A DNA stretch of 33,978 bases from Cyanobacteriota bacterium (GCA_026389365.1 JAPLHZ010000109.1:1-33978), one strand, 5' to 3'; counted from the stretch's first letter, positions 478-8,109 are shown. A program made the numbers and translations. The notes: generated by a model not told the origin, from the sequence alone.

Positions 478-1206
478 ATGATTCAACCCGATAACGACCC
501 ACAAAGTCTAAAAAGCCGTCCCATTCACCGCAAACGCATTTATCTGGGTTTGACGATCGCGGCTGTCCTTGCAGGTGGCGTTGTCATTTACAAGAATTCC
601 GAAGAAAAGCCCGACGACCCGATCGATTCGGTGTTTTATCAAACTACTGCTCAATGCGAAGCGGACATCAAAAAGCAGCAAACTGAATACGCCACTTTAC
701 AAAAAAACTTCCAAGGGGACGAAGAAAATGAAGCCCCAACCCCACCGCCAATGAAGGTTGAGGACTGCGCCGCTCAAATGCAGGCCGCCCAGCAGGAATA
801 TGAAAAAACAGCGCCAATTTATAACACGATCGACGATTGCTATGCTGAAGGTGTGCAGTGTGAGCCAACTCGTCCCGGCGAAACAACCGCAGGATATCGC
901 CCTGTCTATGGCGGTACCTACATAGAACCCTACTCCGATAATTCTAGCTATGTCTATTATGGTGGCGGCTCCCATCGCATCTATGACAATCGCCCGGTCT
1001 ACCAAAGTAATACTTCTGGCTTCATTGTCACCCCTTACGGACAAGTAGTCCCCCAAACCACCCCAGGCCGGGTCAGTGTGCCACGCCATACCAGTTTTGC
1101 CGCACCTCTCAGGCCCACTGGAACCGCCGCTAAAGGGACAATCAAGGGGAGAGGAAGCCAAGGCTTTGGCTCTTCATTTAAAGGGACTGGCCGTGGTGGA
1201 AAATAA
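478..1206 (+). CDS. DUF1190 (YgiB-like) membrane-anchored protein
   Basis: 242 residues. A short basic N-terminus is followed by one membrane segment (about residues 21-38). The rest is extracytoplasmic, with Cys at 60, 97, 121 and 128; EYEKTAPIYNTIDDC matches the core of E. coli YgiB (DUF1190), where a similar stretch precedes a DC motif. The last ~60 residues are low-complexity and end in a Gly/Ser/Lys-rich tail (GFGSSFKGTGRGGK), as YgiB also has a Gly-rich end. Unlike many relatives it has no lipobox Cys. The next gene is a YgiC-type ATP-grasp ligase 18 bp downstream, reproducing the ygiB-ygiC gene order. The biochemical role of YgiB is not established; serving as substrate or partner of the ligase is my inference. 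Confidence 0.8.
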   Translation: MIQPDNDPQSLKSRPIHRKRIYLGLTIAAVLAGGVVIYKNSEEKPDDPIDSVFYQTTAQCEADIKKQQTEYATLQKNFQGDEENEAPTPPPMKVEDCAAQMQAAQQEYEKTAPIYNTIDDCYAEGVQCEPTRPGETTAGYRPVYGGTYIEPYSDNSSYVYYGGGSHRIYDNRPVYQSNTSGFIVTPYGQVVPQTTPGRVSVPRHTSFAAPLRPTGTAAKGTIKGRGSQGFGSSFKGTGRGGK

Positions 1207-1224
1207 ATAAGGACGTAAATCCAG

Positions 1225-2565
1225 ATGAAACCGATCGCTATCCTTTGTCGTCCCGACTGGCAGCAGCATATTCGTGACAATGCCTATCAAGCGGATGTCT
1301 TAAGCGATCCAGCCCAGCAATATTGGGTAGAAGCGCTCCCGCAACCCTTCGCCATTCAATTCACGGGACAGGAAGAAACGGCGATCGCTCAAGCTACCGA
1401 GGCGCTATGGGCTATGGGAATTGAATTTCTCGACTGGTTTTTTACCGATCGCGAGTCTGGTGAGGTCGATCGGCGATTGGCCCAACTTCAAATTTCGCCG
1501 GACTATTGGCAAGCAATCAAAAATAGCTGGGATCGGACGGAACCTGCTGAAGATCTCTCGTTGCATACGCGATTTGATTTAGCCGTCACGGATGAAGGTG
1601 CGATCAAGTTATTGGAAATTAATGGAGAAACGCCACTGCTGGGAGCAGAAACAATTTACCAATGGAATTGGTATGTAGATTACATGCAGAATCACCAACA
1701 GAGTGCATTGCCTTTACCGAGCGATGCCAGTCAGTTCAATGAATTCTGGGAGCAAATTGTAGCCCAATGGGGGCGTATTGTTGCGGCATACAATCTTCAA
1801 GAGTGCGGGATTTCCTTTCTGGTGGATGAGAATCTTGAAGAAGATCTAGAAATGGCAATGCAGTTAATTCAAATCCTGCTTGATGATGTCGATCCGAATA
1901 TTTATACTCAAATTGTCTATCTACGCGGATTGAAAGACGATCGGGGCCGCAAAATTCAGCAGGGATTGGGGTTAGATGAGGACGGTTATTTTGTTGATCA
2001 TGCCAACGATCGAATTCCCGTGTTGTGGAAAATGTATGATTGGTCAGATTTACAAAATGATATGGCAAATGATGGCAGTACTCAGGTGTTTGCCGATCGA
2101 TTGGAAACAGGGGAAGTCAAAATCATTGAACCATTATGGAAGCAAGTGCTGTCGAATAAAGGAGCATTGGCGATGATGTGGGAGCAGTTTGGCGATTCGG
2201 AGTATGGGAAATATCTCTTGCCAACCTATTTCGACAATGCCACCGCCGTCGATGCAACGAAATTACTGTTTGATATGCATGTACGCAAACCATTGCTGGG
2301 ATTGGAAGGCGCGGGAATTTCGATCGAAAGCGGATACGGCGCACTGGAACAAAAAGAATCTTTTGGCTATGGGGCAGAGGGATTCATCATTCAGGACTAT
2401 ATCGAACTCCCACAAGCCTTTGGCTATCATTATGTGGTCGGTAGTTGGGCGATTGATGGGGTTGCCGCTGGCGTGATTATTCGGGGTGATACGTCTAGAA
2501 TTACGGGCCGACACTGTTTGATTATTCCCCACATTGTGTCGAATGAGGGCTATATCCCTGATTGA
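1225..2565 (+). CDS. Glutathionylspermidine synthase-like ATP-grasp ligase (YgiC/YjfC type)
   Basis: 446 residues, against about 386 for E. coli YgiC. The N-terminus (RPDWQQHIRDNAY) and the block LLEINGETPLLGAETIYQWNW (near residue 131) match the family, as do EPLWKQVLSNKGALAMMWE, VRKPLLGLEGAGISI and GYHYVVGSWAIDGVAAGV in the C-terminal half. These form the ATP-grasp fold that couples ATP hydrolysis to C-N ligation of a carboxylate and an amine. The N-terminal amidase domain of bifunctional E. coli Gss is absent. The natural substrates of YgiC proteins are not settled, so glutathionylspermidine synthesis should not be assumed. AAGGA lies upstream of the ATG. It is the middle gene of a three-gene operon. 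Confidence 0.87.
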   Translation: MKPIAILCRPDWQQHIRDNAYQADVLSDPAQQYWVEALPQPFAIQFTGQEETAIAQATEALWAMGIEFLDWFFTDRESGEVDRRLAQLQISPDYWQAIKNSWDRTEPAEDLSLHTRFDLAVTDEGAIKLLEINGETPLLGAETIYQWNWYVDYMQNHQQSALPLPSDASQFNEFWEQIVAQWGRIVAAYNLQECGISFLVDENLEEDLEMAMQLIQILLDDVDPNIYTQIVYLRGLKDDRGRKIQQGLGLDEDGYFVDHANDRIPVLWKMYDWSDLQNDMANDGSTQVFADRLETGEVKIIEPLWKQVLSNKGALAMMWEQFGDSEYGKYLLPTYFDNATAVDATKLLFDMHVRKPLLGLEGAGISIESGYGALEQKESFGYGAEGFIIQDYIELPQAFGYHYVVGSWAIDGVAAGVIIRGDTSRITGRHCLIIPHIVSNEGYIPD

Positions 2566-2573
2566 GAAACCCA

Positions 2574-3434
2574 ATGCAAACAATTCATCAATCCCGTTAT
2601 CAATCACGCTTTAGGCAAACTGCCGCCCGATCGCGGGTGAATCAAAACCATTGGGATCTCGATGCCGTTCTGCCTCTGGGGTATCGGATTGCGCCGGAGT
2701 ATTTCGATCGAGTGGCGGATGAGGTTCACCAGAATTTTTGTCGTCTTTTAAGTCGTGATGTCTATTCAGAGGGCGATTCGCAGTCATTATACGATCACAT
2801 TATTGGCCGATCGAATGAGATGTCCCCCGCATTTCTCGCCATGTTGAAGTTATGGTTGACCGATGAACTGAAACATTATGAAGCGCTGCGTCGAACCAAT
2901 CATTGCATTGCAGGTATTAGCTTTGATGCAATGGACCAACAATTTGCCGATCGGGTGCATGAAATTGAGCCGATCGCAGCGGTATTGGTGGATGAATTCA
3001 CAGTGCTGGTAACGCTAATGTTTGACGAGATTGGTTCAGTTTATTCCTATCGCCGCGACCTCTGGGAATACTATCGACATTATGGGCCAGCGATTCAGCG
3101 CATCGGTCATCATCTGATTCAGGATGAGGGAATGCACTTCAATAATGCAGCTGTGTTGTTGCTTAATCAATACTGCGATCGATTGGACGAAGTGCCAAAA
3201 TTATTGACGCAGATTGGGTCTTTGGAAACCTATTTGAAAAAGTATCATAAGACGTTTTTTCTCGATCACGCCCAGGAACAATATCGGTTTCCGCCCTGTT
3301 TTAATGCTGTGTTAATTCGGTTGATTCTGGCGCGATTGGGATTGGGAGAGCGGCCCGATCGGTTGGAATTGCAGGAGCTTTGGCAATGGGTACCAGACGA
3401 CTGTCGCATAACGCCAATCTTTGGGGACGAGTAG
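2574..3434 (+). CDS. Ferritin-like di-iron protein of unknown function, third gene of the ygiBC-type operon
   Basis: 286 residues from the ATG at 2574, 8 bases after the ligase stop; a TTG at 2562 overlapping that stop is the alternative. Two ExxH motifs, DELKHYE (E98, H101) and QDEGMHFNNA (E185, H188), sit in predicted helices with further acidic residues between them (E141, D151, E152). This is the ligand pattern of carboxylate-bridged di-iron proteins of the ferritin-like superfamily. I could not place it in a named family such as AurF, MiaE or ribonucleotide reductase. Tight coupling to an ATP-grasp ligase suggests an oxygenase or oxidase acting on the ligase product or on the DUF1190 protein; that is inference. 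Confidence 0.75.
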   Translation: MQTIHQSRYQSRFRQTAARSRVNQNHWDLDAVLPLGYRIAPEYFDRVADEVHQNFCRLLSRDVYSEGDSQSLYDHIIGRSNEMSPAFLAMLKLWLTDELKHYEALRRTNHCIAGISFDAMDQQFADRVHEIEPIAAVLVDEFTVLVTLMFDEIGSVYSYRRDLWEYYRHYGPAIQRIGHHLIQDEGMHFNNAAVLLLNQYCDRLDEVPKLLTQIGSLETYLKKYHKTFFLDHAQEQYRFPPCFNAVLIRLILARLGLGERPDRLELQELWQWVPDDCRITPIFGDE

Positions 3435-3608: not shown

Positions 3609-5201
3609 ATGGCATCTCGTGCGCTTATTTTTGGTCTCGTCCCCAGCAGTCTAATCGTGTTGCTCTCCAGTCCTGCCGTCCAAGCGCAAGATGTAGAGTT
3701 ACAGATTGGTATTATTCAGCGCTACGGCGATCGCCCCAAGGATGTCCTAACCCTAAAAGCAGTCCCCGGCGACTTGCTAACGGTACGCATTGCTGAACAA
3801 GATGGCAAAATCAAAACCCTCACCACCGACACCCTAAAACTCGAAACCACCGTCCAGCCCTTACCCAAACCTCGCGTTGAAGAGCGTCTGGTGTTCAGTA
3901 CCCACCGCAGCTTTGAATCCGCCGAAGAACAAGCCCAATACTGGAAATCTCGTGGCATTGAAGTTGAATTAGCGCAGCCCGATCGTTGGCAAGTCTGGGC
4001 CAAACGCAGCATCTATAAAACACCGACTGTCCTTCGCCTCCTTGAAAAAAATCTAAAAACTCAAGGCATCCAAACCTCCCGTATCGAAACCCGAACTCTA
4101 ACCGGATTGCCTCGGGCTACCTTTATCCTAAATGGTTTCAAATATACCCGCGACCAAATCGAAGTTACATCCGGCAAGGGCATGATCCAAGTCGATCGTG
4201 ACAACGACAACGCCCCCAACCGCACCTTCCCCGGCAGCCTCAAGCTCCAACCCAACGCCTATGGTAACTACAGCTTAGTCAATCTAGTCGCCCTCGAATC
4301 CTATCTGCGCGGCGTGGTCCCCTACGAAATCGGGACGGGTGCGCCCCAAGCCGCCATGCAAGCCCAAGCCATCATGGCCCGTACCTATGTCTTGCGAAAT
4401 CTGCGCCGTTTTACCACCGACAACTATCAACTCTGCGCCACGACTCAATGTCAGGTTTACTTCGGCACCAGCGGGGTGACGACGGCAACAGATAGCGCCA
4501 TTGCCAGCACCCGAGGCTTAGTCTCAACCTACAACGACGAACTTGTGGATGCCCTATATTCCTCAACCACGGGCGGCATCACGGCCCCATTTAATGAAGT
4601 GTGGCGCGGTAAACCTCGGGCCTATCTGATCGGGAAAGTCGATGCGGTGGCGAATGTGTGGAATTTGACGCAGCGGCCTTTGTCGGATGAAAACAATCTG
4701 CGAGACTTTATTAAATTGAAAGATGGCTTCAACGAGTCTCGGGAATCTAGCTATTTTCGTTGGCAAACCGAAAGTTCGATCGATGCTCTAACTCGTGACA
4801 TTAAAGAATACTTGCAAAGTATCGGTAATCCTTTGGCCGGATTTAGACAGATTCAGGAAATTCAGGTGATGGAACGATCGTCTGCTGGGCGGGTGGCAAA
4901 AATGGGCATCCAAACGGATTTGGGTGTGGTTGTCCTTGAAAAAGACGAAATTCTTCTAGCTTTTGAGGCTCCAAATAGTTTGCTGTTTTATATTGACCCT
5001 ATTGTTGATGCGAGTAGTAATCTGAAAGGCTACAAATTTGTGGGGGGTGGTTTTGGTCATGCGGTGGGCTTGAGTCAGTTTGGATCCTATGCCTTGGGCA
5101 AACGAGGATTTAGCTACGATCGGATTTTGACGTTCTACTTTCCCGGTAGCCAAATCAAGCCCATTTCACCCCAGATCACGTTCTATCGCGAGCCTAACTA
5201 A
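3609..5201 (+). CDS. SpoIID/LytB domain protein with signal peptide
   Basis: 530 residues. A signal peptide (hydrophobic residues 7-22, likely cut after AVQA) marks export. Residues ~92-136 (VFSTHRSFESAEEQAQYW and following) resemble a SPOR-like peptidoglycan-binding module. The SpoIID/LytB core follows: ESYLRGVVPYEIG (~229), AAMQAQAIMARTYVL, ALYSSTTGG and the C-terminal GGGFGHAVGLSQFG (~479). In Bacillus, SpoIID is a lytic transglycosylase and LytB an amidase enhancer. Cyanobacteria do not form endospores, so a role in cell-wall remodelling is expected. It ends 21 bp from convergent glmM, a peptidoglycan precursor gene; that proximity may be incidental. Confidence 0.9.
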   Translation: MASRALIFGLVPSSLIVLLSSPAVQAQDVELQIGIIQRYGDRPKDVLTLKAVPGDLLTVRIAEQDGKIKTLTTDTLKLETTVQPLPKPRVEERLVFSTHRSFESAEEQAQYWKSRGIEVELAQPDRWQVWAKRSIYKTPTVLRLLEKNLKTQGIQTSRIETRTLTGLPRATFILNGFKYTRDQIEVTSGKGMIQVDRDNDNAPNRTFPGSLKLQPNAYGNYSLVNLVALESYLRGVVPYEIGTGAPQAAMQAQAIMARTYVLRNLRRFTTDNYQLCATTQCQVYFGTSGVTTATDSAIASTRGLVSTYNDELVDALYSSTTGGITAPFNEVWRGKPRAYLIGKVDAVANVWNLTQRPLSDENNLRDFIKLKDGFNESRESSYFRWQTESSIDALTRDIKEYLQSIGNPLAGFRQIQEIQVMERSSAGRVAKMGIQTDLGVVVLEKDEILLAFEAPNSLLFYIDPIVDASSNLKGYKFVGGGFGHAVGLSQFGSYALGKRGFSYDRILTFYFPGSQIKPISPQITFYREPN

Positions 5202-7878: not shown

Positions 7879-8109
7879 CTAACTTTCGTAAACTCGGCAC
7901 TCAACAGCATCTGGATTGGTGTCACAGTACACATTGAATTCAGTCCCTGTTTCGTTTTCACGTTGATGAGACGCTTCGGCTTGCAGTTCTTCAACGGCAT
8001 CCCAAGCTGCTGCACATTTCGGTGAAGTCGCACCATCAATGCCGCAGGTCTCGCGGGCATTCTCACGTTCAGCTTCGATTTTCTTTTCTAGTTGCTCATT
8101 CTTACTCAT
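7879..8109 (-). CDS. cp12: CP12, redox regulator of the Calvin cycle
   Basis: 76 residues, the usual length for stand-alone CP12. It is an intrinsically disordered linker that joins GAPDH and phosphoribulokinase into an inactive complex under oxidising (dark) conditions. Both redox Cys pairs are present (C22/C32 and C62/C71), as are the PRK-binding core AWDAVEEL (35-42) and the GAPDH-binding tail YCDTNPDAVECRVYES. There is no CBS-domain fusion. AAGGA precedes the ATG. A clear terminator downstream and a divergent neighbour imply a monocistronic unit. Confidence 0.96.
   Translation of the reverse strand: MSKNEQLEKKIEAERENARETCGIDGATSPKCAAAWDAVEELQAEASHQRENETGTEFNVYCDTNPDAVECRVYES

Follow-up and report, generated by a model that had tools for sequence, protein, structure and literature searches.

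A cyanobacterial DUF1190–YgiC-type ligase operon extended by a candidate ferritin-like di-iron oxidase gene, with a putative role in protein C-terminal tailoring

Introduction

Why does a gene for a candidate ferritin-like protein directly follow genes for a DUF1190 protein and a YgiC-type ATP-grasp ligase? This question is raised by positions 478–3434 of a 33,978-nt stretch of DNA from a Cyanobacteriota bacterium (the window, by which we mean the whole stretch analysed), where three co-directional genes form a tight operon. The original prediction for this locus, made from the DNA sequence, was of a ygiB-ygiC-type pair joined by a third gene with two ExxH motifs, the products of which were suggested to perform a ligation followed by an oxidation. 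ATP-grasp ligases of the YgiC group phosphorylate a C-terminal carboxylate and then couple it to an amine (PMC10979984). We here describe the operon, its conservation and its relatives, and weigh the reactions that it may encode.

Results

Organization of the operon

The first gene (478–1206, plus strand; ATG start, TAA stop) encodes a DUF1190 protein (PF06693) of 242 amino acids, the proposed carrier or substrate. The second (1225–2565, plus strand; ATG, TGA) encodes a YgiC-type ATP-grasp ligase (PF03738) of 446 amino acids with matches to YgiC (7UK8) and YjfC (7UK6), and the third (2574–3434, plus strand; ATG) a protein of 286 amino acids that belongs to no named family and is, as judged with AlphaFold2 and Foldseek, a candidate ferritin-like di-iron oxidase. 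All positions given below for parts of these genes are also on the plus strand. The gap between the DUF1190 and ligase genes is 18 bp, and the ligase stop codon (2563–2565) is separated from the ATG at 2574 by 8 bases, exactly the distance that had been predicted. The open reading frames, the Pfam matches, the 8-bp gap and the recurring linkage described below thus bear out the description of a tight pair with a third gene. In comparison with a 93%-identical homolog, dN/dS was ~0.1 for each of the three genes, indicating that all three are constrained.

Promoter and terminator counts were those of shuffled sequences, and no PADLOC defence family was matched. The next gene on the same strand (3609–5201) encodes a SpoIID-domain protein and does not recur beside the set elsewhere. 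A small ORF on the minus strand of the window (7879–8109) resembled, as judged by eye, a CP12-type Calvin-cycle regulator.

Linkage and distribution of the three genes

The search for homologs of the third gene covered 386 genomes of the phylum, with the window protein as query, and a collection of 84,980 species, with a profile as query; it yielded close homologs at 35 non-redundant loci (L009–L047 without L015, L025, L028 and L037). A ligase gene lay directly upstream on the same strand at 34 of these 35 loci, and all three genes were present at 32, with the DUF1190 homolog upstream of the ligase; the exceptions (L018, L035 and L038) are truncated loci. Other conserved neighbours were absent, with no further gene recurring at more than five of the 35 loci. 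Within the phylum, the third gene was found in 7 of the 386 genomes (one 28%-identical hit not counted), and ligases of the window clade (at least 50% identity) were found in 7 of the 386, the two sets of genomes being identical. DUF1190 was present in these seven genomes and in three of another family of the phylum, which carry the canonical pair without the third gene. Fisher tests of co-occurrence among the 386 genomes, which call for caution since the genomes are related, yielded p values of ~4e-15 and 5e-13. Distances of the three proteins were correlated (Mantel r, 0.82–0.92), although vertical inheritance alone could also yield such values. The third gene is thus found mostly beside the ligase, one-to-one in the phylum, and the opposite outcome, a gene residing mostly elsewhere, was not seen. 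This linkage, the one-to-one co-occurrence in the 386 genomes and the correlated distances support a joint role of the three proteins in protein tailoring.

The distribution is patchy, yet the third gene was present in all four genomes of the window's own genus. Copies decayed by frameshift or truncation were found at L030, L036, L038, L045 and L046, and no viral contig or phage record encoded a relative. At L031 (3465–9812), the entire operon is in tandem duplicate, the second ligase gene having an in-frame stop codon and a frameshift. A complete operon was also found on a 4.4-kb contig (L033; OMIW01000130.1) titled Proteobacteria bacterium, whose genome (G429) was placed in a phylum of 46 genomes; this occurrence may reflect transfer or contamination. 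The Pfam DUF1190 model had no match in these 46 genomes, G429 included, even though the L033 contig encodes a homolog of the window DUF1190 protein.

The ligase and its family

The window ligase matched PF03738 (GSP_synth) with an E-value of 5.9e-63 and, in the PDB, E. coli YgiC (7UK8; E 1.9e-33, residues 2–437) and YjfC (7UK6; E 6.6e-30). It belongs to the YgiC/YjfC family by virtue of its GSP_synth domain, full-length similarity and catalytic motifs. Against the glutathionylspermidine synthetase/amidase model (NCBIfam PRK10507), it scored 65.4 bits compared with a cut-off of 882, with the synthetase part only being matched and no amidase domain present. The predicted active-site residues R116-x-D118 (1570–1578) and E131-x-N133 (1615–1623) were invariant in 28 ligases, and their patterns are those of essential residues of Cp1B, the second pair corresponding to E163 and N165 of that enzyme (PMC12568646). 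Mutation of any of the four such residues cripples Cp1B, which is structurally related to YgiC (PMC12568646).

RefSeq lists both YgiC and YjfC of E. coli as peptide–spermidine ligases, in agreement with Pederick et al. 2023 (as cited in PMC12568646). The pair of families described in the original prediction was supported, whereas its view that the function of the pair is unresolved needs amendment in that the ligase activity is now annotated. The match to these annotated enzymes supports the tailoring reading, with ligation of spermidine to a peptide C-terminus being a putative activity of the window ligase.

The DUF1190 protein and its C-terminal tail

The window DUF1190 protein falls within PF06693 (E 1.9e-7; 32 bits, with a cut-off of 22). 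A hydrophobic anchor at residues 21–39 (538–594) was read from the sequence and the alignment and suggests a membrane-anchored topology; some homologs (L031, L032 and L045) have a lipobox, and cysteines are conserved. The DUF1190 protein thus looks exported, and the ligase and oxidase, with no evident signal peptides, look cytoplasmic.

The most conserved part of the protein is its C-terminal tail, KGTIKGRGSQGFGSSFKGTGRGGK (residues 219–242; 1132–1203), as apparent from the alignment. Mean pairwise identity was 67.5% for these last 24 residues versus 35.9% for residues 1–218, and every complete DUF1190 C-terminus of the operon family ended in Gly-Lys (33 ORFs; the remaining two are pieces of a single frameshifted gene). 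Among 16 partners of YgiC-like ligases lacking the third gene, which were hand-picked across the spread of hits and are not a random sample, nine ended in GG and none in K. A C-terminal [RK]GGFG...GG tail was common to partners of YgiC-like ligases from several phyla, as exemplified by E. coli YgiB (RGGFG...SMGG) and YjfM (RGGYG...HWGG), Vibrio (RGGWG...WGG) and Sulfitobacter (RGGFG...GFGG). Similar tails were apparent in partners that are not annotated as DUF1190, including those of Acinetobacter (RGGFGRSGFSFGG), Arthrobacter (RGGFGGGAKGGGGHGG) and Bacillus (SSGFGG). The gene upstream of an Azospirillum ligase (L101) encodes no such tail. A strict tail pattern overlooked half of the family, the spacing being variable, and was not used as a statistic. 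At L031, the second DUF1190 copy retains mainly the lipoprotein signal, the linker and the tail, even though its ligase copy is broken. The conservation of the tail at about twice that of the rest, the shared ends of the partners and this reduced copy support the tail as the ligase substrate, although a conserved tail might instead serve sorting or assembly.

The difference in apparent location also bears on how the products act. With an exported DUF1190 protein and cytoplasmic enzymes, modification of the tail would have to precede export, which counts against such a reaction and would suit an operon that makes a small diffusible amide, with DUF1190, rather than being the substrate, a lipoprotein for export, binding or sensing of the product. 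The related Cp1B does work on small molecules (PMC12568646). We nevertheless consider production of such an amide unlikely, in that the most conserved part of DUF1190 is a tail common to otherwise different ligase partners and that no transporter or additional biosynthetic gene is conserved with the operon at the 35 loci. We assign little probability to a scaffold role, in which an amine-derived unit would be built on the tail, oxidized and then freed by proteolysis, in the manner of PEARLs. These enzymes extend a peptide C-terminus by way of an acyl phosphate, oxidation comes next, and their structure resembles that of glutathionylspermidine synthase (PMC10979984); DUF1190, however, is a full-length, apparently exported protein, and no protease gene recurs alongside the operon at the same 35 loci.

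Two further tails were recorded. Divergent cyanobacterial ligases at L060 (2–2091) and L102 (2314–4619) lie behind a long gene of a different kind, and the protein it encodes terminates in VSGFGSFR.GG.SS, which is similar in flavour to the tail above. On an Arthrobacter plasmid (L098, 2868–3374), a gene preceding that for a YgiC-like ligase encodes a 168-amino acid product with an RGGFG...GG end, and its annotation as a tRNA-dihydrouridine synthase looks doubtful.

Structure prediction for the third protein

No Pfam or NCBIfam family scored above its cut-off for the third protein of 286 amino acids. The residue numbering of the two ExxH motifs on which a di-iron site had been proposed (E98/H101 and E185/H188) is exact for the ATG at 2574. 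Two such motifs arose in 21% of composition shuffles of the protein, however, and by themselves are weak evidence. They gain meaning from their invariance together with E66 and E152 in 27 homologs and from their placement in the helices of a ferritin-like model. Residues E66, D68, D97, E98, H101, E141, D151, E152, D184, E185 and H188 were invariant in the 27 aligned homologs, down to 26% identity. The predicted ligands, each invariant in both alignments (A2 and A3), are E66 in helix 1 (2769–2771; D68 being an alternative), E98-x-x-H101 in helix 2 (2865–2876), E152 in helix 3 (3027–3029) and E185-x-x-H188 in helix 4 (3126–3137).

An AlphaFold2 model based on the 27 sequences (pLDDT, 90.9; pTM, 0.88) places E66, E98/H101, E152 and E185/H188 in helices 49–67, 85–113, 141–165 and 172–199, respectively. 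The model thus contains a four-helix core with E, ExxH, E and ExxH on the right helices and in the right order and, at this level of helix placement, does not contradict a joint site for the two ExxH motifs. A Foldseek search of the PDB returned ribonucleotide reductase R2, stearoyl-ACP desaturase, an R2-like ligand-binding oxidase, aldehyde-deformylating oxygenase (ADO) and a phenylacetate-oxygenase-like protein, with the azoxy synthase VlmB among the matches of the first model. The matches listed had probabilities of 0.95–1.00, TM scores of 0.4–0.6 and a best E-value of 2.5e-3, which is modest. These results indicate that the third protein is a predicted ferritin-like di-iron oxidase, a statement that we limit to the level of the fold on account of the modest E-values and TM scores. 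The predicted di-iron site is in this way backed by fold and invariance, rather than by the motif count from which it had been proposed.

Members of the family also had Pfam matches below cut-off (6 of 27 members), to FA_desaturase_2 (best; E 0.0019), Rubrerythrin (0.0066) and Ribonuc_red_sm (0.058), and together with the model and the fold matches these weak hits support the di-iron oxidase assignment. No match to a named ferritin-like family was above cut-off in the PDB, Pfam or NCBIfam, and the third protein would therefore represent an unnamed family of ferritin-like fold. It shares the predicted fold and the E, ExxH, E, ExxH order with R2, acyl-ACP desaturase and ADO but differs in having an additional conserved C-terminal part with the sequence LDHAQE and in lacking sequence-level membership of their families. 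Ligand spacing (E66–E98, 32; E152–E185, 33) compares with 31 and 34 in E. coli NrdB and with 28 and 29 in the ADO of the same genome, for what we take to be the ligand positions of NrdB and ADO. This separate, true ADO is encoded on another contig (C335), which holds the only match of the genome to PF11266; the third protein is not a member of that family.

The Rubrerythrin matches would fit a protein for iron storage or sensing or for peroxide protection, with no catalytic role in tailoring. Such a role has, in our estimate, very little probability, with the fold matches being to oxidases of the R2, desaturase and ADO types and with near-exclusive linkage to one ligase clade being hard to explain by iron storage.

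Neither the single sequence nor a profile of the third protein had a true relative in the PDB; the weak hits of the profile, to amyloid beta A4 chains, were chance matches. Alignment of the family with E. coli NrdB and the genome's own ADO by hhalign was insignificant and was not used for ligand assignment.

Distant homologs of the third protein and polyamine genes

Homologs of the third protein with 26–29% identity were found on Pseudomonas plasmids. That of P. aeruginosa, present on at least 15 plasmids in near-identical copies, begins 15 bp after a gene for a protein with a full-length match to the solved homospermidine synthase 6Y87. On the P. tremae plasmid, a truncated gene that encodes the same saccharopine-dehydrogenase C-terminal domain is followed by two homologs and then by a rubredoxin gene, and a gene for a PotF-like polyamine-binding protein is located a few kilobases upstream. 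Rubredoxin is a common electron donor to di-iron enzymes. All predicted ligands are retained in the Pseudomonas homologs; E141 is absent, and for this reason was dropped as a candidate ligand. Two unrelated genomic contexts thus appear to place the third-gene family beside polyamine enzymes. In the window's own genome, genes for AdoMet decarboxylase and spermidine synthase are adjacent. The homospermidine synthase, the rubredoxin at one locus and these spermidine genes support the proposed tailoring pathway.

The Pseudomonas loci differ from the window in having no adjoining ligase or DUF1190 gene, which suggests that free polyamine may be the substrate of their di-iron enzymes. By extension, the di-iron enzyme of the operon might act first, generating an oxidized polyamine or an amine derived from an amino acid that the ligase would then attach to an acceptor, either the DUF1190 tail or some other molecule. 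In the biosynthesis of E-64, an iron oxygenase acts ahead of an ATP-grasp ligase (PMC12568646). The Gly-Lys end, however, coincides exactly with the presence of the di-iron gene, which hints at an action on the tail. Gene order cannot decide the matter, and we regard this order of events as possible but doubtful.

The full gene row at the P. aeruginosa locus (L092, 5441–8968; plasmid CP109686.1) is homospermidine synthase, ferritin-like homolog, DMT transporter and GNAT acetyltransferase, and that at the P. tremae locus (L093, 6041–8917) is the truncated homospermidine-synthase-like gene, two ferritin-like paralogs, a small membrane protein and rubredoxin. A stand-alone cyanobacterial homolog (L015, 9811–10524; 28% identity) has all the predicted ligands with no ligase or DUF1190 gene nearby; it and a Bradyrhizobium fragment have other neighbours and no polyamine-gene context.

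Discussion

We propose that the DUF1190 protein is the carrier of a three-gene protein-tailoring unit. The YgiC-type ligase would activate the carboxylate at the end of the tail as an acyl phosphate and, prior to export, couple it to spermidine or a related polyamine. The third protein would then hydroxylate or otherwise oxidize the conjugate, at either the polyamine or the terminal Gly-Lys. We give this sequence of polyamine ligation and di-iron oxidation a probability of about one-half. The shared partner tail and the polyamine context of distant homologs strengthen the pathway originally proposed, whereas the reaction itself is one that we infer, as to the tail as substrate, the polyamine as amine, the di-iron enzyme as second to act and the type of oxidation. 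Points that count against it include the modest Foldseek scores, the derivation of the polyamine context from two Pseudomonas loci at 26–29% identity, and the Azospirillum exception.

Known systems resemble the unit in part. In E. coli ygiB-ygiC and yjfM-yjfC, a DUF1190 gene is followed immediately by that for a YgiC-type ligase, as in the window, and the tail contains RGGFG or RGGYG, but there is no third di-iron gene and the tail ends in GG rather than GK. The E. coli yjf operon also includes PspA, DUF350, DUF2170 and DUF2491 genes, none of which belongs to the cyanobacterial unit. E-64 biosynthesis (Cp1A, Cp1B and Cp1D) likewise combines an iron oxygenase with an ATP-grasp amide ligase whose structure resembles that of YgiC, but the oxygenase is an Fe/alpha-ketoglutarate enzyme, an ANL amide synthetase takes part and DUF1190 is absent (PMC12568646).

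The formation of hypusine, in which a polyamine is joined to a protein by deoxyhypusine synthase and then hydroxylated by a di-iron enzyme, deoxyhypusine hydroxylase, is similar in its proposed logic alone; the enzymes and folds differ, and a lysine side chain of eIF5A is modified, compared with a protein C-terminus in our proposal. We found no literature on a ferritin-like gene with YgiC-type ligases; the tail may nonetheless have been proposed as the substrate before, with Pederick 2023 and Iyer 2009 being the likeliest places.

Sequence comparison and structure prediction show that the operon is real: it is a variant of a known pair that is conserved in cyanobacteria and that includes a previously undescribed family of predicted ferritin-like di-iron proteins. 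More tentatively, the ligase may add a polyamine to the terminal Gly-Lys of an envelope protein, with the unnamed di-iron family oxidizing the conjugate and the wider YgiC family recognizing the [RK]GGFG...GG tail across phyla. Many bacteria, E. coli among them, possess DUF1190 proteins and YgiC-type ligases, and the literature that we reached gives no natural substrate for the ligase; a compact operon of three genes, in which the carrier tail is nearly invariant, renders this question testable. For the unnamed di-iron family, two unrelated genomic contexts point to polyamine chemistry as a likely setting. If the proposal is true, the operon would modify the C-terminus of a protein in two steps that together are new, and the result would be the bacterial equivalent, at a protein end, of hypusine.
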